Below are positions 48,488 to 60,317 of a stretch of 64,000 bases of DNA, one piece after another. The DNA lies in contig JABURP010000116.1 of NCBI GenBank assembly GCA_014762645.1, positions 1 through 64,000 on the forward strand, in the 5' to 3' direction. The stretch comes from Crocinitomicaceae bacterium. GTDB lineage: Bacteria > Bacteroidota > Bacteroidia > Flavobacteriales_D > Crocinitomicaceae. The notes beneath the pieces are model-generated. The model was not told the DNA's origin. It did not search any database and saw only the letters and a list, made by a program, of their open reading frames with translations. Made by a program: the position numbers and the translations under genes. Within the stretch, counting starts at the first letter, position 1; each line of letters opens with the position of its first letter.

Positions 48488-48771
48488 ATTTTGTTAAAGA
48501 TGAATAAAAATCATTTCCAAACTGTCAGATTTCTCTCAAATTTCAGAGCAATTATCGACGAATAAGGCTTTTTTGTAGACTAATTTTTAACAACTAAATC
48601 GTTTAAATGTCTTGTAGAACATAAAAAATTAAAAAGATCCACGAAATAATTCGTTGAAAATCAAACCTCACAGTACCTTTTAACACAATGTTAAAATTTG
48701 CACTTCGAATAATTTCTCTAAAGACGAATTTTGGCGTATTTTTACGTATTACACATAGCACAAACGAAATC

Positions 48772-51700
48772 ATGACAAAACAAGTACAACATTTTTGGTT
48801 GTTGCTGGCCTCAATCCTAACGAGCAGCATTGCTTTTTCTCAGCCTTCCAATGACGATCCTTGTAACGCTATACCACTTACAGTCAATTCGTCCTGTACT
48901 TACTCGACGTATACAAATGCATCTGCAACAGCATCATCAGGTGTTCCGGCTCCTGGATGTGCTAATTATTCGGGTGGAGATGTATGGTTTACAGTTACTG
49001 TTCCTGCCGGTGGTCAGATTACAGTGGATGGAATTCAAGGGGTTGTTACTGATGGAGGAATGGCAATTTATTCAGGATCTTGTGGTTCGCTTTCACTTGT
49101 CGCATGTAATGATGACAGCAGTCCTAACGGATTGATGCCAATGATAACACTAACGGGACAGACACCTGGAGCAACACTTTGGATACGATTTTGGGAATAT
49201 GGAAATAACAATAACGGAACTTTTGGTATTTGTGCCACCCAACCGGCTGGACCTCCACCAAATGATGATTGTTCAGGTGCTATTGGATTAACAGTAAATC
49301 CTGATTTAAACTGCGGAACAGTTACGGCCGGAACGATTGAATCAGCAACAGGATCCTCTCAAAGTACTGCCGCATGCGGTGGAACAGAAGATGATGATGT
49401 TTGGTTTTCATTCACAGCAACAGGAACAACGCATACCATTGATCTTTTGAACATTACTAGTGGTACGACTGATCTATACCATTCCGTATGGTCTGGTAAC
49501 TGTCCGGCACTAGGGCTTGTCGCAGGATCTTGTAGTGACCCGAATAGTAGTACAGTTACTGGTTTAACACCAGGTAACACCTATTATGTGAGGGTATATT
49601 CGTGGACCAGTACCGCAGGGCAAACCTCTGATTTTGATATTTGTATCGGAACGCCACCTGCACCTCCAGCGAATGACGAGTGCTCTGGTGCATATCCTGT
49701 GACAGTAAATCCGGACTTTAGCTGTACTTCTGTTACTTCGGGAACAATTGCATCAGCAACAGGTTCAACGCAAAGCACGGCAGCTTGTGGAGGAACAGAA
49801 GATGATGACGTGTGGTTTTCGTTCACAGCAACAGGAACAACACATACGATTGATCTTCTAAATATCACCAATGGTACTACCGACCTTTATCATTCTGTAT
49901 GGTCTGGTAACTGTCCGGCACTGAGCCTTGTTACAGGATCTTGTAGTGACCCTAACAGTAGTACAGTCACTGGATTAACACCCGGTAACACCTATTACAT
50001 ACGAGTGTATTCATGGACCAGTACTACCGGACAGACATCTAACTTTGATGTTTGTGTAGGAACGCCTCCACCACCGCCAGCCAATGATGACTGCTCCGGA
50101 GCCTTCCCTGTGACGGTAAACCCGGACAACCTGTGTGGCTCAACAACTTCTGGAACTATTGCTTCTGCCACTGGTTCAACACAAAGTACGGCAGCATGCG
50201 GCGGAACAGAAGATGATGATGTTTGGTTTTCGTTCACAGCAACCGGAACAACGCACATGATTGATTTATTAAACATTACAGGTGGTACATCCGACCTTTA
50301 TCATTCGGTTTGGTCTGGAAACTGCCCTGCACTAAGCCTTGTTGCAGGGTCTTGTAGTGACCCTAACAGTAGTGTTGTCTCCGGACTAACACCTGGTAAC
50401 ACGTATTATATTAGAGTTTATTCATGGACCAGTACTACGGGCCAAACCTCAAGCTTTGATGTTTGTGTCGGTACACCACCACCGCCACCAGCAAATGATG
50501 ATTGTGCAAATGCAACTACCGTTCCTGTATCCACAACAACCTGTAATTATGTAACGGGTAGTATTTATAGTGCGACAACCTCTTCTCAAACAAATGATTG
50601 TGGTGGAACAGCAGATGATGATGTTTGGTATCAGTTTACCGCAACATCTCCTGCCGCACAAATTAGTTTAACAAACATAACAGGTAGTACATCAGACCTG
50701 TATCATTCGGTTTATGCTGGTTCGTGTGGTTCTCCAGGTGCCGCCATAATTTGTAGTGACCCGAACTCCAGTTCGGTTACTGGATTAACACCTGGTAACA
50801 CTTACTTTATCCGAATTTTCTCCTGGACTGGAACTGCCGGTCAAACTTCAACGTTTGATTTGTGTGTTATGGAAACAGGAGCCTGTGGAACTCCGGAAAC
50901 ACAAGATTTTTGTGTGGCACCGGCAGTATTGACAGCAGGAGCAGGTAGTTTTTCATCCAATACTTCAGGTACGTATACTTCTGATACACCTGCCAATTTG
51001 AATACTGTTTTCTGTGGTTCGATTGAAAATAATTCCTGGTACGAATTTGTTGCTGCTTCTACTTCAGAGGTCTTTAATTTTACTTCTGTAACGGGATGTA
51101 CATCTGGAATTCAGGCAGAAGTATATGAAGTTACCGAAGATGTCAACGGATGTTGTACCAACTTCACTTCCATGTCAAATTGCTGGAACCCTGCAACAGC
51201 TACGTCCGGTACTGTAACAGCCACGGGACTTACACCAGGAAACACATACGTTCTTATGGTGGATGGATTTGGTGGAGACGTATGTGATTTTACCGTTTCA
51301 AACTGGACAGCTTCAGGTATTTTACCGGTGACACTTGTAAACTTTAATGCACAAGCAGCTTTTGATCATAACCTGATTAACTGGACAACAAAATCTGAAA
51401 TTGAAAATGATCACTTTAATGTGATGCGTTCATTTGATGGGGTTAATTTTCAAAAGATTGATGAAGTGGAAGGCGCAGGAAACTCGAGTAGTGAGTTACA
51501 CTACCAGGTAGTGGACAGAGATATCCGTCCTGGTATCGTTTATTATCAGTTGGTACAAGTAGATATCAACGGTGATACTAAGTCATCTGAAATAATTTCA
51601 CTGAACAGAGAAGAGCAAGATGACATGCTTCAATTCTGGCCTAATCCAACCAACAGCAATCTTTACGTGAACCTACAGCCATCTACACACCCAACTTCTG

Positions 51701-51873
51701 AAAAGTTAGAAATACTGGATGTTAATGGTAAGGTAATTAAGAGAATTTACGTTGACCGAAATGAAGACCATGACATCACCATTCCGGTAACAGACATTAA
51801 CGAAGGTGTTTACATGATTCGTTTTGTAGATGAAACCGGAGTAGTAACGATCAAAAAATTTATTAAATCCTAA
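48772..51873 (+). CDS. T9SS-secreted repeat protein with 137-residue modules
   Basis: 1033 aa from the ATG at 48772; an upstream ATG at 48688 would add 28 residues before the signal peptide QHFWLLLASILTSSIAFSQ and is rejected. A divergent first module (to about 160) is followed by three near-identical modules of exactly 137 residues (about 164-574), a fourth less similar one and a further degenerate one. Each has NDDCSGA, CGGTEDDDVWFSFTATGTTH, TDLYHSVWSGNC and LTPGNTYYIRVYSWTST, like pre-peptidase C-terminal (PPC-like) beta domains. A FnIII-like domain (ILPVTLVNFNA) and a type A T9SS signal (LQFWPNPTNSNLYV ... GVYMIRFVDETG) end the protein. No catalytic domain is seen; binding is likely. Confidence 0.85.
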   Translation: MTKQVQHFWLLLASILTSSIAFSQPSNDDPCNAIPLTVNSSCTYSTYTNASATASSGVPAPGCANYSGGDVWFTVTVPAGGQITVDGIQGVVTDGGMAIYSGSCGSLSLVACNDDSSPNGLMPMITLTGQTPGATLWIRFWEYGNNNNGTFGICATQPAGPPPNDDCSGAIGLTVNPDLNCGTVTAGTIESATGSSQSTAACGGTEDDDVWFSFTATGTTHTIDLLNITSGTTDLYHSVWSGNCPALGLVAGSCSDPNSSTVTGLTPGNTYYVRVYSWTSTAGQTSDFDICIGTPPAPPANDECSGAYPVTVNPDFSCTSVTSGTIASATGSTQSTAACGGTEDDDVWFSFTATGTTHTIDLLNITNGTTDLYHSVWSGNCPALSLVTGSCSDPNSSTVTGLTPGNTYYIRVYSWTSTTGQTSNFDVCVGTPPPPPANDDCSGAFPVTVNPDNLCGSTTSGTIASATGSTQSTAACGGTEDDDVWFSFTATGTTHMIDLLNITGGTSDLYHSVWSGNCPALSLVAGSCSDPNSSVVSGLTPGNTYYIRVYSWTSTTGQTSSFDVCVGTPPPPPANDDCANATTVPVSTTTCNYVTGSIYSATTSSQTNDCGGTADDDVWYQFTATSPAAQISLTNITGSTSDLYHSVYAGSCGSPGAAIICSDPNSSSVTGLTPGNTYFIRIFSWTGTAGQTSTFDLCVMETGACGTPETQDFCVAPAVLTAGAGSFSSNTSGTYTSDTPANLNTVFCGSIENNSWYEFVAASTSEVFNFTSVTGCTSGIQAEVYEVTEDVNGCCTNFTSMSNCWNPATATSGTVTATGLTPGNTYVLMVDGFGGDVCDFTVSNWTASGILPVTLVNFNAQAAFDHNLINWTTKSEIENDHFNVMRSFDGVNFQKIDEVEGAGNSSSELHYQVVDRDIRPGIVYYQLVQVDINGDTKSSEIISLNREEQDDMLQFWPNPTNSNLYVNLQPSTHPTSEKLEILDVNGKVIKRIYVDRNEDHDITIPVTDINEGVYMIRFVDETGVVTIKKFIKS
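49261..50493 (+). repeat. Three tandem 411-bp direct repeats in the surface protein gene
   Basis: Copies start at 49261, 49672 and 50083, each 411 bases (137 codons) beginning AATGA at the NDD/NDE motif. A fourth, less similar copy starts at 50494. Long runs of bases are identical between copies, so recombination between them is possible. Confidence 0.92.
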
Positions 51874-53388: not shown

Positions 53389-53862
53389 CTATTTGATCGG
53401 AATGTCTTTCACCACATTTTTATCCTCATCTGCATCTTTTTTATGGTGTAGCGTAATGTACAGCACTCCATTCTTCACTCGCGCCTCAATATTATCCTGA
53501 TCCGTGATGGATCCTAACTGAAATGAACGCTCAAACTGCTCCAGATCATGTTCCAAAATAATATAGTTGGAATCATTCAGGTCATCTTTTTCGCGTTTAC
53601 CTTTCACTGTTAACACATCATCCTCGATATGAACAGAAATGTTCTCCTTCGTAAATCCTGGAACCGGAATTTCCAAAACATATCTGTTTTGGTTGGCAAT
53701 CAAGTTGGTCAATGGTTCGTTTCCTTTATCAACGAAATCACTATCTTCATAAGGATTCCTTGCTAAAAGGTATCTTCTGTCAAACATATCCCCATAATGA
53801 CTCCCAAATTTATGTTTGAAAATCTGAGGGTGCCAGGTCGGTTTATTTGTAAATCTCCACAT
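53389..53862 (-). CDS. Small heat shock protein, Hsp20/alpha-crystallin family
   Basis: 157 aa, cytoplasmic ATP-independent chaperone. The alpha-crystallin domain (about 50-148) has NRYVLEIPVPGFTKENISVH, DDVLTVKGKRE and the A-x-x-x-n-GVL signature RVKNGVLYITLHHK. The C-terminal I-P-I motif (DIPIK) used for oligomer assembly is present at the very end. No CIRCE-like inverted repeat was seen upstream. Confidence 0.93.
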   Translation of the reverse strand: MWRFTNKPTWHPQIFKHKFGSHYGDMFDRRYLLARNPYEDSDFVDKGNEPLTNLIANQNRYVLEIPVPGFTKENISVHIEDDVLTVKGKREKDDLNDSNYIILEHDLEQFERSFQLGSITDQDNIEARVKNGVLYITLHHKKDADEDKNVVKDIPIK

Positions 53863-54078
53863 AACATTTGTTTTTAAGCTATTTATTATAAAATAAGGAG
53901 ATTTAAAGCCAATTCAAAATGAGTTCTGTCAGTTAATCTATTGACATTGTGAATACTACATTTAGCATTGTGAATTTAGGAAATAGCCTGATCTATTAAA
54001 AATTTTGAACTTCCCGAATTAAATCGCGTTCTCCATCAAATTGATTATTTTTAGTACTTCAGGTTAAACCTAAACTGT

Positions 54079-55635
54079 ATGATACCCCATCAAAAAGAAG
54101 ATCCATCCATTATTGATGCCCAGGAAGATGAAAATGGAGCTTTTACACTACCTCGCTCTTCTACGCAGGTTTCTCTCTATTATATATGGGCCCTTTTGGT
54201 GTGTTTTCTTTTCGTAGGAGAATCTTTTGGTTTAAATGTTCTTCTGACAACCACCATGACTGTTCCGTTATATGCGTTTCTTGATCTGGAAAATCTCAGG
54301 AAACCAAAATGGTGGCTTGCTTCTTTAATTTTCCTGCTCACCGCCATAGGGGTCTTTGTTCATCCAACCAACACGGCAATTACAGCATGGTTTGTTTCAT
54401 TTATGTACTTTTTTGTCGTCACCAATTTCTCTAGATTCTCCCTTTACATAGGCTTGTTGCAGGCATTGATTGCAGTACTGAACAGCTACGCCAGCTTTTT
54501 TGAGGCGTTAAGTAACTTTTTCAGGCAAAAAACAGAAAAAAAGAAGAGAGCTTACATTCGAATTCTCCAGATAATTGTTCCAATTACACTTGGGATGATT
54601 TTCATAAAACTCTATCAACGCGCAGACAAGAACTTCCATGACATGACCTGGTTCATTAACCTTGAGTGGTTTTCATGGCGATTTGTAGCCTGGTATTTAA
54701 TTGCCATTTTCGTTCTATTCGGTACTTATTTTGGTGTAACAAGCAGCATTTTGAAAGAATGGGAGCAAAAATGTAAAGATGATGTACCTAAAGATCATGA
54801 GGACCGCATTGAAAAATACCTGGGAGAAGACAATGAAGCACGGATTGCTTCCACTACACTTATCTTACTGAATTTAATTCTGGGACTTTACGTGTTGATG
54901 GATTTCAGGTATTTATTCACTGGCCTCACGAATCCGGTAACTGATCCCAACCTGGCTGAAGTAGTCCATGATGGTATTGTGGCGTTAATCTCTTCCATTA
55001 CATTGGTCATTCTTCTCGTTACTTTTTTCCTGCGTGGTAAACTCAATTTCAGGAATAACAAGCGCGTGGAATGGTTAACAATCACCTGGTTGGTATTAAA
55101 TATTCTACTGGTGTTTACAACCTCCGTTAAGAATTTTGAATATATCAGCTCCTGGGGATTAACCTACCGAAGAATGGGAGTTTATATTTATCTGTTTTTA
55201 TGCCTTGTAGGATTAGTCATTGCTATCGTTAAGGTTAGAAAGAAGAAGACATTTTGGTTTCTACTGCGCAATACAACCTTGGCATTTGCATTAGTGCTGG
55301 CTTCACTCTTAACATTTAACTGGAACCGGTTCATCACGGATTACAACCTAACAAACATTGAAAAAGAACATATCGATTTTCAATACCTGGTAAGTCTTGG
55401 TCCGGATACGTATGCGTACATCATCCACTACCATAACAACGTCTCAGAAGTGGATGACGAGATATTAAAGCAGATTGCAGATGAGGCCCCAAAGCATTTG
55501 AGTAATCTCAGCAGTAAAAAAGCCACCACCACGTGGAAATCATATACCATCAATGATGCAAAATTGTACGAAGAACTCTCCAATCTGGAACTCGATTATA
55601 AAGACAGGAATTTTTTGTGGAAACTCTTCAATTAG
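54079..55635 (+). CDS. DUF4173-family multi-pass membrane protein
   Basis: 518 aa with about twelve hydrophobic segments and an acidic N-terminal tail (PHQKEDPSIIDAQEDENGAF). The DUF4173 parts are WGLTYRRMGVYIYLFLCLVG and NWNRFITDYNL with YLVSLGPDTYAYI. The family's function is unknown. It is 27 bases upstream of the Nramp-like gene, so it may belong to the transporter-pxp unit. A C-terminal soluble tail (about 440-518) is likely cytosolic or periplasmic. Confidence 0.8.
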   Translation: MIPHQKEDPSIIDAQEDENGAFTLPRSSTQVSLYYIWALLVCFLFVGESFGLNVLLTTTMTVPLYAFLDLENLRKPKWWLASLIFLLTAIGVFVHPTNTAITAWFVSFMYFFVVTNFSRFSLYIGLLQALIAVLNSYASFFEALSNFFRQKTEKKKRAYIRILQIIVPITLGMIFIKLYQRADKNFHDMTWFINLEWFSWRFVAWYLIAIFVLFGTYFGVTSSILKEWEQKCKDDVPKDHEDRIEKYLGEDNEARIASTTLILLNLILGLYVLMDFRYLFTGLTNPVTDPNLAEVVHDGIVALISSITLVILLVTFFLRGKLNFRNNKRVEWLTITWLVLNILLVFTTSVKNFEYISSWGLTYRRMGVYIYLFLCLVGLVIAIVKVRKKKTFWFLLRNTTLAFALVLASLLTFNWNRFITDYNLTNIEKEHIDFQYLVSLGPDTYAYIIHYHNNVSEVDDEILKQIADEAPKHLSNLSSKKATTTWKSYTINDAKLYEELSNLELDYKDRNFLWKLFN

Positions 55636-55662
55636 CGACAAAAGGAATCAGGCGTATCATAC

Positions 55663-56859
55663 ATGAGAAAATGGATTAGAAATTTCGGACCCGGAACTTT
55701 GATTGTTGCGGCCTTTATTGGTCCTGGAACAATTACAACATGTATCAGGGCTGGTGCTAATTTTGGGTTCTCTTTGCTTTGGGCATTGCTTTTTTCAATT
55801 GTAGCTACCATTTTTCTCCAGGAAATGGCTGCCAGGGTAGGTTTAGTGACCAAAAAAGGCTTAACTAACGCCATTACAGACCAACTCTCCTCACGAATTG
55901 CAAAAACACTAATAATTACATTGGTATTTACGGCCATTGTAATTGGAAACACTGCTTATGAAGCAGGAAATATTTCCGGTTCTGTTTTAGGAATGGAAGC
56001 ATTGTTTGGACCTGAAGCGATCCGCTTATACCCTATCATCATTGGATTGATTGGATTTGGATTACTTATAACAGGAAGCTATAAAGTCATAGAAAAAAGC
56101 CTGATGGTCCTGGTGGTTTTGATGAGTATCTCTTTTATTCTGGCAGCTGTGATTACACAACCGGATTTATCTGAAATTTCTAAAGGGATGTTCATCCCTA
56201 CTACTCCGGAAAATAGCTTGCCAATTATTATCGGAATTCTTGGAACCACAGTGGTTCCTTACAATTTGTTTCTGCACTCCTCGCTTGTGCGTGAAAAATG
56301 GAAAAGTGTTGACAAGTTGAGATTGGTACGTATTGACCTGATAGTATCCATTATTTTAGGTGGAATTGTCTCCATAGCCATTGTGATTTCTGCTGCGGCA
56401 ATGACTGGTGGCAATGTTAGTTCCGTCATGGATTTGGCAAAAGGTTTGGAACCTGTTTATGGCGATATGGCACGCTATTTTTTAGGAATCGGATTATTCG
56501 CTGCTGGTATCACTTCTGCCATTACAGCACCACTTGCGGCAGCCTTTGTGGCTCGCAATTGTTTTAAATGGGATGCCTCTTTAAAAGATATTAAGTTTAG
56601 GGCCGTTTGGATGGGAATTTTGATCCTGGGGGTTGTATTTTCATCCATCAACCTAAAACCAATAGAAGTAATATTGTTTGCACAGATTATTAATGGATTA
56701 TTGCTCCCAATCGTTGCTATATTCCTGCTGTGGATAGTGAACAATAAAAAAGTGCTTGGGAAGTACACCAACAAACTTGTGACAAATATCCTGTCCGTCA
56801 TCATAATTTTGTTGACTATCTTCTTAGGTTTTAAGGCAATTCAGAACGCAATAGGATGA
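55663..56859 (+). CDS. Nramp-like transporter linked to 5-oxoprolinase genes
   Basis: 398 aa, about eleven membrane helices. It belongs to the Nramp/SLC11 superfamily by its helix-1 start (GPGTLIVAAFIGPGTITTC) and by helix 6 (TTVVPYNLFLHSSLVR). The metal-site motifs are changed: helix 1 has GPGT (20-23) where metal carriers have DPGN, and helix 6 has VPYN (198-201) where they have MPHN. Loss of the Asp, Asn and Met ligands argues against manganese or iron transport. The stop overlaps the pxpAB start (ATGA). In Bacillus subtilis an Nramp-like gene (ycsG) neighbours the same enzyme genes, so uptake of 5-oxoproline or a related compound is a reasonable inference, not shown here. Confidence 0.85.
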   Translation: MRKWIRNFGPGTLIVAAFIGPGTITTCIRAGANFGFSLLWALLFSIVATIFLQEMAARVGLVTKKGLTNAITDQLSSRIAKTLIITLVFTAIVIGNTAYEAGNISGSVLGMEALFGPEAIRLYPIIIGLIGFGLLITGSYKVIEKSLMVLVVLMSISFILAAVITQPDLSEISKGMFIPTTPENSLPIIIGILGTTVVPYNLFLHSSLVREKWKSVDKLRLVRIDLIVSIILGGIVSIAIVISAAAMTGGNVSSVMDLAKGLEPVYGDMARYFLGIGLFAAGITSAITAPLAAAFVARNCFKWDASLKDIKFRAVWMGILILGVVFSSINLKPIEVILFAQIINGLLLPIVAIFLLWIVNNKKVLGKYTNKLVTNILSVIIILLTIFLGFKAIQNAIG

Positions 56860-58292
56860 TTGATATCAATTGTGACGTAGGTGAAGGAACGGGTAATGAG
56901 CATTTGCTATTCCCCTATATCTCTTCCTGTAATATTGCTTGTGGTGGACACGCCGGAGACACGGAAAGCATGAGGAGCATTTTACAGTTAGCAAAACGCC
57001 ATCACATCAATGTGGGCGCGCATCCCTCCTACCCTGACAGAGCAAATTTTGGACGAAAATCAATGACCTTATCCGCTGATGAACTCTCTACTTCCATTTT
57101 TGGTCAAATTAAAGGATTACAGCAACTCGCACATGAGTTTGGGCTTACACTTCATCACATTAAACCGCATGGTGCTTTGTATCATGATGTATGTCAAAAA
57201 GAGGAAGTAGCCGGGATTTTTTTGGAGGCAATTGAAGAATTTAGGACAAGTTGCAAGCTCTGTGTACCCGGGCATTCTCGCATTGCCCAATTGGCACTGG
57301 ACAAAGGATTTGATGTTTGTTCTGAAGTATTTGCGGATCGGAACTATAATGAAGATCTCAGCCTGGTAAACAGAACTGCCATTGACGCACTAATTACTGA
57401 CCCTACGGTAGCAGCTGAACACGTAGAAAATATGATCAGTAAAAAACAGGTCAGAACCAAATCCGGCAAATTTGTTCCGATTCAAGGACAAACCTATTGC
57501 GTTCATTCAGATACAAAAAACTCGGTGGACATTGTCCGACATTTATATTTGAAATACGGAAGAACCTACCCTTTAACCTTTAAACCATTTGGAGCCTCAG
57601 CCTTATTGATCGAGTGGCCGGAACAGATGAATGAATCCATCCTTCGGGATGTTCTGGCCTTTAAAGAGACAATTGAACAGGCTGCTATTGAAGGAATAAA
57701 CGAGTTGGTGCCTTCCATCCATTCCATTACCGTGATTGTTGATAGCACGATTCAAGATTTTGATCACCTGATAAAAGAATTACAAGCACTGTATAATAGC
57801 AGATCTGAACCCTTTGAACTACCGCGAACAATATGGAAAGTACCCGTATGTTATGATGAGAACTTTGGATCAGATATAAAAGAATTGGCTGAGAGTCATT
57901 CGCTGTCAAAAGAAGAGGTGGTTCAACTCCATACCAAATCGAATTACCGAATTTATGCAATTGGTTTTTTGCCGGGATTTCTTTACCTGGGTGGATTAGA
58001 TGAGCAACTACATACTGACAGAAAAGAAACACCCCGACTAAGTGTGCCAAGCGGTGCTGTTGGGATCGGAGGAAGTCAAACTGGTATTTACCCATGCGAA
58101 AGCCCTGGAGGTTGGCATTTGATAGGTAATTCTCCTCTTAATTTTTTTGATCAGACAAGTGATCAACCGTGTTTTGCCTACGCGGGTGAACGGATACAGT
58201 TTTATGCTATATCTCAAGATGAATATAACGAGATCAAAAAACAAGTTGAATCAGGACAATACCGCTTAAGAAAGGAGGAAAATGATGATTGA
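56856..58292 (+). CDS. Fused 5-oxoprolinase subunits A and B (PxpA-PxpB)
   Basis: 478 aa, a single frame that joins two proteins usually encoded apart. Residues 1 to about 232 are PxpA (LamB/YcsF family): MIDINCDVGEGTGNEHLLFP, SCNIACGGHAGD, VGAHPSYPDRANFGR and HHIKPHGALYHDV. From about 236 the PxpB (KipI/allophanate hydrolase subunit 1-like) half begins: PLTFKPFGASALLIEWPE, YAIGFLPGFLYLGGLDEQ, TPRLSVPSGAVGIGGSQTGI and ESPGGWHLIGNSP. With PxpC they should form the ATP-dependent bacterial 5-oxoprolinase that opens 5-oxoproline to glutamate. It overlaps the transporter by four bases and pxpC by eleven. Confidence 0.93.
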   Translation: MIDINCDVGEGTGNEHLLFPYISSCNIACGGHAGDTESMRSILQLAKRHHINVGAHPSYPDRANFGRKSMTLSADELSTSIFGQIKGLQQLAHEFGLTLHHIKPHGALYHDVCQKEEVAGIFLEAIEEFRTSCKLCVPGHSRIAQLALDKGFDVCSEVFADRNYNEDLSLVNRTAIDALITDPTVAAEHVENMISKKQVRTKSGKFVPIQGQTYCVHSDTKNSVDIVRHLYLKYGRTYPLTFKPFGASALLIEWPEQMNESILRDVLAFKETIEQAAIEGINELVPSIHSITVIVDSTIQDFDHLIKELQALYNSRSEPFELPRTIWKVPVCYDENFGSDIKELAESHSLSKEEVVQLHTKSNYRIYAIGFLPGFLYLGGLDEQLHTDRKETPRLSVPSGAVGIGGSQTGIYPCESPGGWHLIGNSPLNFFDQTSDQPCFAYAGERIQFYAISQDEYNEIKKQVESGQYRLRKEENDD

Positions 58293-59121
58293 AGTAATCC
58301 AACCGGGTCTTTTCACCAGCCTTCAGGATCTGGGGCGTTTTGGTTATCGTCACCTTGGAGTTCCCGTTTCCGGAGCAATGGATTTGGATGCGGCTCAACA
58401 TGCTAATCATATTCTGGGAAATGACCCGACCTGTGCGGTATTAGAAATCACACTGCAAGGACCCACGTTAAAGTTTTTAATTGATACTAAGATTACACTA
58501 ACCGGAGCGCACTTAAGTCCAGAAGTCAATCAACAACCGGTTGAAATGTATCAACCAGTAGAAATATACAAGGATGATGAATTAACCTTTGGAAAAAGAA
58601 TTAGTGGTGTGCGATCTTACCTGGCAGTTACAGGAGGCTTTAAAACCGATATGATATTTAACAGTAAGAGTTTTTACAAAGGGATCACATCACAAGAAAA
58701 ATTAGTGGAAGGAGATATATTGGAGTTAGCATCAACTTCAGGGAAAAAAGCTGCCGAACTGCAAGTTGAACCTCCAGCGTATAATACACATGAATTATAC
58801 GTTACTCCGGGCCCGGAATTTGAACTTCTTCATCCTCAACAAAAAGAAAAACTCCTTTCCGAAAAATGGACCCTTGGCATGAATAGTAGAATGGCCTATC
58901 AAATTGAAGAATTAATGCCTAACAGGTTGCCTTCTATTTTAAGCTCTGCTGTCCTTCCAGGAACGATTCAACTTACTCCTTCGGGTAAAATGATTCTATT
59001 GATGAGAGATTGTCAAACTATGGGAGGATACCCGAGGATATTACAATTAACTGAGAAATCCATCAATCTCCTGGCACAAAAAATGCGGTTTGAAGAAGTA
59101 AGTTTTCGACTGATTCATTAA
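58282..59121 (+). CDS. pxpC: 5-oxoprolinase subunit C (PxpC, KipA family)
   Basis: 279 aa. The allophanate-hydrolase-subunit-2-like family motifs are present: IEVIQPGLFTSLQDLGRFGY, GVPVSGAMDLDAAQHANHIL, LEITLQGPTL, FGKRISGVRSYLAVTGGF, and RMAYQIEE ... TPSGKMILLMRDCQTMGGYP. Length is a little under the usual 300-330. It overlaps the pxpAB fusion by eleven bases, and there are two ATG codons at the start, so the true start may be one codon later. It closes the operon; no clear terminator follows within 200 bases. Confidence 0.93.
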   Translation: MMIEVIQPGLFTSLQDLGRFGYRHLGVPVSGAMDLDAAQHANHILGNDPTCAVLEITLQGPTLKFLIDTKITLTGAHLSPEVNQQPVEMYQPVEIYKDDELTFGKRISGVRSYLAVTGGFKTDMIFNSKSFYKGITSQEKLVEGDILELASTSGKKAAELQVEPPAYNTHELYVTPGPEFELLHPQQKEKLLSEKWTLGMNSRMAYQIEELMPNRLPSILSSAVLPGTIQLTPSGKMILLMRDCQTMGGYPRILQLTEKSINLLAQKMRFEEVSFRLIH

Positions 59122-59336
59122 CTCCAAAACAAGCATACAAGATAGCACAATACCTCCTGTATAAATTGAGAATCATCAGTTTATCCGGTGATTTAAATTT
59201 GTCAAAACCTTCTGTTTCAGCACCCATCTGCATCTGTGTGATTCCGGTGATTTTAATCAATCACATCCTTGCTTGAAGTCAGAAATATTTACCTGTTGAC
59301 CATCTAATTTTACTATTAAATCAAACACTTAGTATT

Positions 59337-60317
59337 ATGGAAAAGTCAGGTAAATATCTTGTGAAACTCTGGACCATATTACTCACTTTAATATTTCTTT
59401 CATTTTACACGGCACGGGCTTCAAAAGTAGAAGCAATTAAAACCGGAAACTGGGTAGATATTGGATGTTGGGATCCGGAAGTTGTTCCGGGATGTTTTGA
59501 CACCATCCTAATCCCAGCCGGGATGGTCATTACCGTGACCGATCAGATCGATTTAACCATGTGTAATCCAACAATTGTATTGGTAGAAGGAGAATTAACC
59601 TTTCAAACCGGTAAGAAAATTGATCTTTCATGTGGTTCCTGCATAGAACTTTCGGGATTTCCAAATCAGGGTATACTATCTGGAGGTAACGGAGGTGGAA
59701 GTTCGAATTGGGTTACAATTTGCGAGCAGGGTATGTGGAAAGCCGAAGATGGAACCGCTTATGGGCCTTTGTCACTATGCAACTTATTATTATTTGCAGA
59801 TTTGACAGCTTTTGAGGCGAATTCTTTGGCTGACAATGTACTACTATCCTGGACCATTGCAACTGAAAACAACTGTGACCATTATACTATTGAACGCAGT
59901 GAAGATGGAGTTAACTGGAGAAATATTGGAGATGTGCAAGGAGCAGGTTACAGCAATAGCAGCATTGACTACTCCTATACCGATTGGTCACCTGTGAATG
60001 GTTTGTCCTATTACCGTCTAACGGAGATTGACTTTAATGGAAATACATCCATCCTCAAAACGATTAGTCTTAACTATAATGCAGAGCGCCCGGTAATTTA
60101 CCCAAACCCTGTGCACATAGGCGAAACATTATCAATTGCTTATTCATCAGATTCACCTACCAAATTTGTACAGATCTATTCGCAGGATGGAAAAGTCATT
60201 TATGAGCAACAATTTGAAGGAGACCAATTAATAAGCATTGAGGTTAGTGATCGATTATCTTCAGGGATATATATTGTAGACGTCAATGGTATCCAGACAA
60301 GAATGGTGATTCGATAA
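59337..60317 (+). CDS. T9SS-secreted protein with G8-like and FnIII-like domains
   Basis: 326 aa. Signal peptide about 1-28. The first domain (about 30-130), KTGNWVDIGCWDPEVVPGCF with FDTILIPAGMVITVTDQIDL, resembles the G8/Ig-like beta domain of Bacteroidota surface proteins. A FnIII-like domain follows (about 158-248; LLSWTIATENNCDHYTIERS, VNGLSYYRLTEIDFNGN). The type A T9SS signal is PVIYPNPVHIGETLSI ... SSGIYIVDVNGIQ ... RMVIR. There is no catalytic motif. It is a single-gene unit that meets a convergent gene two bases after its stop. Confidence 0.8.
   Translation: MEKSGKYLVKLWTILLTLIFLSFYTARASKVEAIKTGNWVDIGCWDPEVVPGCFDTILIPAGMVITVTDQIDLTMCNPTIVLVEGELTFQTGKKIDLSCGSCIELSGFPNQGILSGGNGGGSSNWVTICEQGMWKAEDGTAYGPLSLCNLLLFADLTAFEANSLADNVLLSWTIATENNCDHYTIERSEDGVNWRNIGDVQGAGYSNSSIDYSYTDWSPVNGLSYYRLTEIDFNGNTSILKTISLNYNAERPVIYPNPVHIGETLSIAYSSDSPTKFVQIYSQDGKVIYEQQFEGDQLISIEVSDRLSSGIYIVDVNGIQTRMVIR

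Follow-up and report, generated by a model that had tools for sequence, protein, structure and literature searches.

Transport of 5-oxoproline by an Nramp relative has already been published: C. glutamicum grows on this compound only with pxpT, according to an in-frame deletion that was complemented (PMC13274462). As PxpT shares 50% identity with YcsG of B. subtilis (PMC13274462), we count it in the YcsG-type lineage. More generally, Nramp-related proteins without metal residues are a known paraphyletic group or outgroup, in which magnesium carriers are the only members given a function in the relevant parts of three accounts (PMC12873925, PMC9606685 and PMC4072509); this outgroup has been likened to a link with carriers of non-metal substrates (PMC4072509). 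Here, we analysed a carrier encoded directly ahead of 5-oxoprolinase genes in a 64,000-nucleotide stretch of DNA (the window) from a Crocinitomicaceae bacterium (contig JABURP010000116.1, positions 1 to 64,000). We infer its substrate, direction and mechanism: very probably, it imports 5-oxoproline (pyroglutamate) and feeds PxpABC. The carrier belongs to a second lineage, which, together with its residue signature, was not found in the open-licence literature that we searched.

Gene order and metal site of the window carrier

The carrier, its ligand positions and the enzyme genes are located as follows.

55663-56859, plus strand: PxpT-like carrier of the Nramp family, GPGT type, 398 amino acids, intact reading frame (PF01566, E 3.8e-94)
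55720-55731, plus strand: GPGT of transmembrane helix 1 (TM1), residues 20-23, at the DPGN metal site (sequence and alignments)
55969-55971, plus strand: N103 of TM3, Glu in four canonical and two NRMT rows (alignment column)
56254-56265, plus strand: VPYN of TM6, residues 198-201, at the MPHN metal site (sequence and alignments)
56856-56859, plus strand: four-base ATGA overlap of the carrier stop (TGA) with the pxpAB start (ATG) (sequence)
56856-58292, plus strand: fused pxpA-pxpB, 478 amino acids, 5-oxoprolinase subunits A and B (PF03746, PF02682, TIGR00370)
58282-59121, plus strand: pxpC, 279 amino acids, 5-oxoprolinase subunit C (CT_A_B, PF02626, E 2.3e-67)

The carrier matches PF01566 over the full domain (profile positions 1-356 of 357). 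In the fused frame that follows, LamB_YcsF (PxpA, PF03746) covers residues 2-230 and CT_C_D (PxpB, PF02682) residues 241-440, with TIGR00370 (PxpB) above its cut-off. The start of pxpC overlaps this frame by 11 bases, and its product, at 172 bits, stays under the 500 bits set as cut-off for PxpC in NCBIfam. The PxpA, PxpB and PxpC domains are all present according to Pfam, and the 5-oxoprolinase context read by the original prediction from the letters alone is confirmed, as is the four-base overlap that it described. This overlap may couple translation of the carrier and pxpAB. With its overlaps, the order carrier, pxpAB, pxpC puts the carrier in one gene set with pxpABC.

The absence of Asp, Asn and Met that had been noted in GPGT of helix 1 and VPYN of helix 6 was borne out by alignments to solved Nramps and canonical relatives, in which G20 stands in place of Asp, T23 of Asn and V198 of Met, so that none of the three side-chain metal ligands is left. 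Besides these ligands, the TM3 Glu (E134 of Dra, E116 of Bfra) is replaced by N103, a pairing also obtained in the phmmer alignment to 10ky, and the TM6 His by Y200. Where the canonical SLC11/MntH motifs read DxxN in TM1 and A/CxxM in TM6, the carrier has GPGT and T195xxV198. The B. fragilis Nramp loses almost all metal transport with either substitution, D38A or E116A (PMC12873925). G20, N103 and Y200 are invariant across 12 GPGT and 16 YcsG-type sequences and were found in all 59 GPGT-type sequences of the phylum sample described below, the window's included; the same three columns hold Asp, Glu and His in the four canonical rows and Asp, Glu and Trp in the two NRMT-type (Mg) rows. These residues offer a simple signature for re-annotation. 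Public records label members of the lineage 'Nramp family divalent metal transporter', and for the GPGT lineage in Bacteroidota and haloarchaea this label may mislead models of metal uptake that rely on it.

An AlphaFold2 model of the carrier (50 rows; mean predicted local distance difference test score 86.8, predicted template modelling score 0.87) has a LeuT-like fold with both expected helix breaks, at residues 19-20 in TM1 and at residue 198 in TM6. In a structure search with the model, the nearest solved folds were Nramps (Z 35 to 49.5), followed by amino-acid carriers of the APC superfamily (AdiC, Z 30.4; ApcT, Z 30.0). A fold shared with Nramps or with amino-acid carriers shows no function. 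The only other PF01566 match in the window genome (L002, C79:30522-31601; 36 bits) is of a divergent 'GVSH' type that lacks the metal motif and recurs in the same order as the window genome.

Relatives of the carrier and their enzymes

We used 296 genomes of the phylum, drawn without regard to motifs; the profile applied to them (A1, 25 rows), however, was itself built from GPGT members. The scores separated 63 genomes at >=279 bits from the next at 204 bits. Four carrier genomes (G008, G058, G203 and G278) were counted by score alone; in the other 59 the motif was read, GPGT in 58 and GPGS in one. PF03746 and PF02538 matches were likewise counted by Pfam score alone, which gave PxpA (PF03746) in 57 and PF02538 (hydantoinase B/oxoprolinase) in 45 of the 296 genomes. 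The two enzyme families are unrelated, and both include 5-oxoprolinases. Each of the 63 carrier genomes has exactly one of them (41 PxpA, 22 PF02538; none has both and none has neither), and either family occurs in 38 of the 233 genomes without a GPGT carrier (Fisher p 4.5e-38, uncorrected for kinship). A bounded test at the genus level gave 30/30 carrier genera against at most 27/110 others (p 4.4e-15). Where the A1 list holds a different Nramp, an enzyme is present in 5/55 genomes. A genome with the carrier has an enzyme of one of these families, but not conversely. In the window's own family, the carrier is present in 4 of 36 genomes (the window and three more, motifs read); pxpA, sought in 26 of them, was found in all four carrier genomes and in one more (p 3e-4 for the 26). 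This link to two enzyme families was not found in the open-licence literature searched.

Among the 22 carrier genomes with PF02538, nine have a fused frame of >1000 amino acids (OPLAH-like) and 13 a split, HyuB-sized frame; because of the latter, not all 22 are called OPLAH. The hydantoinase/OPLAH family is described as having no sequence similarity to PxpABC (PMC13274462). Genome G282 has the carrier without pxpA, and a fused OPLAH gene lies 0.6 kb away in opposite orientation (L083), an exception that fits 5-oxoproline as the substrate. Three of the 23 PF02538 genomes without a GPGT carrier were inspected, and none has one of the searched carrier types alongside.

We fetched 80 named relatives of the window clade with patterns containing GPGT or VPYN, so that motif conservation among them is partly due to selection. 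In 76 of the 80, pxpABC lies downstream on the same strand (fetched flanks up to 7 kb), and for this reason we judge the pairing of carrier and pxpABC not to be chance. GPGT-type carriers and 11 loci of lower score classes were read from the 296-genome sample, in which NRMT-like and canonical carriers are also present. The GPGT type consists of the window clade (GPGT/VPYN) and two subclades, VPYNLFLG with 15 loci and VTYN with eight, of which one reads VAYN. Its monophyly has support 79/59 in one tree and p-AU (approximately unbiased test) 0.49 in another. In the VPYNLFLG subclade, a hydantoinase A/B (OPLAH-type) gene lies within ~5 kb on the same strand at 9/15 loci (tblastn; Pfam for L041). 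Relatives on haloarchaeal plasmids (seven viewed) are 42-48% identical to the window carrier; HyuA and HyuB stand directly downstream in five of the seven, and one of the other two ends at the record end. At two haloarchaeal loci, an Asp/Glu racemase-family gene follows HyuA-HyuB (L209, 9374-10108; L212, 9351-10043), which hints at a D/L-5-oxoproline or hydantoin step. No relatives of the carrier were found in viral contigs.

YcsG had been cited in the original prediction for the same gene context. It is not the same carrier: B. subtilis YcsG (9a52, an integrative model in the PDB) is 21% identical to the window carrier in the structure alignment, and 16 YcsG-type members are 18-23% identical to it. 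In the tree, ten YcsG-type rows form one side of a long branch (support 100/100), and the window carrier lies outside them. All 16 YcsG-type sequences have GPGF in TM1 and GGT[VI]GGY in TM6, so they too lack the Asp, Asn and Met ligands.

Nearly all of the YcsG-type carriers that we read lie in pxp operons; those from plasmid records belong to B. badius, L. plantarum, C. freundii, Shinella, Paracoccus and Ilyobacter. In B. badius the order is pxpA-NRAMP-hydro-lyase with pxpBC divergent; near the Ilyobacter carrier, there was no pxp gene within 4 kb. An A. baumannii locus (L241, 5196-12702) comprises a regulator-like frame, a carrier, PxpA, a hydro-lyase, a fused PxpB/PxpC-like protein and biotin carboxylase. 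We take this carrier to be MumT, since the order matches mumRTLUHC as given in PMC5050338 for another strain; the first frame, read from its start, is probably a LysR regulator. The A. baumannii mum operon was published as a system for the metabolism of manganese and urea; in its gene content it is composed like a pxp operon.

Other carriers can occupy the same position. At 17 pxpA loci in Bacteroidota no GPGT carrier was scored; they have a YcsG-type carrier (9), an MFS carrier (2), a GPGT fragment at a contig end (1) or none of these (5). MFS carriers take the place of the Nramp in pxp operons on a Pantoea plasmid (L220, 3728-4987) and in Bacteroidota (L232, 4959-6173; L233, 4656-5870), and exchanges of this kind are in keeping with an organic substrate. 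Eight pxpA plasmid loci were opened. An NRAMP carrier is annotated at three of them (L213, L216 and L217), and the rest show an MFS carrier, DUF969-DUF979, a 'permease', an ABC-type system or nothing annotated.

5-Oxoproline as the probable substrate, and its alternatives

The gene order, the residue replacements, the fold model and the genome-wide enzyme link are results of this analysis, and import of 5-oxoproline is our proposal. The original prediction had proposed that an Nramp-fold protein moves an organic substrate such as 5-oxoproline; the context, with 63 of 63 genomes, speaks strongly for it and agrees with the PxpT genetics, and the manganese reports on YcsG and MumT contest it. In the mechanism that we propose, the carrier would keep the Nramp (LeuT-like) fold without the classical metal site and would work by alternating access, the substrate lying between TM1 and TM6 where these helices are unwound. 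With G20 for the TM1 Asp and N103 for the TM3 Glu, the site lacks two acids that serve metal transport and that would repel an anion, which suits an anionic substrate. The backbone amides of GPGT, together with T195/T196, Y200, N201, N103, Q341 and N344, could hold the carboxylate and the lactam. The glycine-rich TM1 loop of APC-superfamily amino-acid carriers binds via backbone amides, and GPGT appears to resemble this loop. Delivered to PxpABC, 5-oxoproline, a waste molecule, would be hydrolysed with ATP to glutamate as a source of carbon and nitrogen.

Several observations weigh against this reading. Four of the 80 named relatives (L105, L126, L141 and L161) have no pxpABC in the fetched flanks. 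The named relatives L175, L176 and L178 have no oxoprolinase-type enzyme within 6 kb. Four further loci (L034, L037, L038 and L087) have no pxpABC nearby, with pxpA elsewhere in their genomes. No oxoprolinase was found near the eight VTYN loci, six of which lie near genes of the 2-oxoacid:ferredoxin oxidoreductase family (clustering; Pfam for L045). These six loci (L039, L042, L044, L045, L047 and L049) have an oxoprolinase-family gene elsewhere in the genome. Conversely, in four of the 57 pxpA genomes (G143, G162, G182 and G275) and in G303 from outside the sample, none of the searched carrier types stands beside pxpA. Moreover, PF02538 does not separate 5-oxoprolinases from hydantoinases, and only the nine fused frames are OPLAH-sized. 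As to the genetics, the growth data on C. glutamicum PxpT come from another lineage than the window carrier, and the PxpT paper itself cannot exclude metal transport (PMC13274462).

One alternative is that the carrier imports a divalent metal, manganese, through an unusual site, and that its place in the operon serves metal supply or reflects joint regulation by nitrogen and metal; this has been claimed of YcsG ('MntG') and MumT. In B. subtilis, cell manganese rose when YcsG was overexpressed, and a triple mutant of mntH, mntA and ycsG proved impossible to make; ycsG received the new name mntG, and the authors hold that its 5-oxoproline phenotype left room for polar effects (PMC10448178); in A. 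baumannii, deletion of mumT lowered cell manganese and was complemented (PMC5050338). These in vivo data keep a manganese role in play, as does the distribution of other Nramps: a second strong Nramp (E<1e-40) is present in only 9/38 pxpT-carrying genomes and absent from the other 29 and from the window genome. We had considered that a genome with its own MntH needs no such carrier for manganese, and rejected this argument on the same count, so that redundancy does not speak against a metal role. However, the data on YcsG and MumT come from the other lineage and were obtained at the level of the cell, so that they can be indirect. The Asp, Asn and Met ligands and the TM3 Glu are absent from the window carrier, from the presumed MumT and from the YcsG-type carrier of the ycsFG-I order; MFS carriers take its place in some pxp operons, and 22 carrier genomes have PF02538 enzymes instead of PxpA. 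On balance we regard manganese import as improbable. The residues bear on a live dispute, for YcsG and MumT stand in print as manganese importers, yet the YcsG-type members read, the presumed MumT among them, are mostly found in 5-oxoprolinase operons and have none of the classical metal ligands.

A wider range, in which the protein carries five-membered lactams and imides, hydantoins included, with 5-oxoproline as one substrate and hydantoin perhaps the main one in haloarchaea, seems to us unlikely, though somewhat less so than manganese import. The 13 split HyuB-sized frames may belong to hydantoinases, and the haloarchaeal relatives adjoin HyuA/HyuB, in two cases with the racemase-family gene next to them; against this, the enzyme in the window is PxpABC, PxpA is the partner in 41 of the 63 carrier genomes, and of the 22 genomes with PF02538 nine carry a fused frame of OPLAH size. 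Export of 5-oxoproline, or of glutamate made from it, that relieves a build-up would also place the carrier beside a 5-oxoprolinase, and 5-oxoproline does form spontaneously inside cells (PMC13274462). However, pxpT mutants of C. glutamicum fail on external 5-oxoproline, which fits import (PMC13274462), and we give export hardly any credence. With import of 5-oxoproline as the preferred reading, the ligand-less 'Nramp outgroup' gains a candidate organic substrate, none being named in the relevant parts of PMC12873925, PMC9606685 and PMC4072509, and this bears on the rise of metal transport in a fold shared with amino-acid carriers.

Possible origin of the operon and comparison with known carriers

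Both the carrier and pxpA are missing from three congeners of the window organism. In a tree with nine rows of the window clade, the closest grouping is of the window carrier with one from a Kordia (99/88; unresolved in another tree), and among 99 pxpABC loci the pxpA-pxpB fusion occurs only in the window and at two Kordia loci (L093 and L095). Together, fusion and tree hint that the operon was acquired from, or is shared with, a Kordia-like flavobacterium. On a larger scale, one side of the unrooted tree is made up of the sampled Mn/Fe and Mg types (support 92/98), and each of the two deep lineages that lack metal residues (GPGT and YcsG/MumT) has a link to 5-oxoproline enzymes. For this reason we consider it possible, though doubtful, that the Nramp family descends from non-metal carriers of the 5-oxoproline type and that metal transport was gained once, via the TM1 Asp and the TM3 Glu. 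The manganese phenotypes of YcsG and MumT would then be indirect effects of 5-oxoproline/glutamate metabolism.

One neighbouring gene had been proposed as part of the unit.

54079-55635, plus strand: DUF4153 membrane protein, 27 bases upstream of the carrier (PF13687, E 3.6e-40)

It was named DUF4173 in the original prediction; its PF13687 match is DUF4153. The gene lies on the same strand as the carrier and may share its transcript in the window. As a member of the operon it was rejected: a tblastn search (E<=1e-6) found no homologue beside any of the 98 other pxpABC loci, five of which have <1.5 kb upstream, and we therefore judge it to be outside the unit. No Rfam match, metal riboswitches included, was obtained in 53400-59400 at E<=0.5, which we count in favour of the 5-oxoproline reading. 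A promoter scan was uninformative, since the 11 promoter-like sites equal the 11.0 that chance alone predicts. Ending 2.2 kb ahead of the DUF4153 gene, 48688-51873 encodes a probably secreted protein of 1061 amino acids with several near-identical repeats of ~130 residues (by eye) and a C-terminal domain that we take to be of the sorting-signal kind. A gallium-resistance paper that names pxpB and an Nramp gene has, in the part concerned, no bearing here (PMC12393781).

Compared with the described systems, the window carrier is like canonical SLC11/MntH proteins (DraNramp, BfraNramp) in fold, with about 20-27% identity to solved members, but it keeps neither DPGN nor MPHN nor the TM3 Glu. Its best sequence match in the PDB is the NRMT magnesium transporter EleNRMT (29% identity), and neither has the Met ligand; however, the NRMT rows compared retain the TM1 Asp and the TM3 Glu, both of which it lacks, and in place of the NRMT motif DxxG-TxxA/T (PMC8806188) it has GxxT-TxxV. 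PxpT of C. glutamicum and YcsG of B. subtilis are likewise Nramp-family proteins in a pxpABC operon, and the metal ligands are missing from the YcsG-type members read; these have GPGF and GGT[VI]GGY, whereas the window carrier has GPGT and GTTVVPYN. MumT of A. baumannii, identified here by gene order, is likewise encoded by the first gene of an operon (mumRTLUHC) whose further products include a homologue of PxpA and a protein like PxpB/PxpC; it belongs to the YcsG-type lineage, is 21% identical to the window carrier and has been published as a manganese importer, and its operon adds a hydro-lyase and biotin carboxylase.

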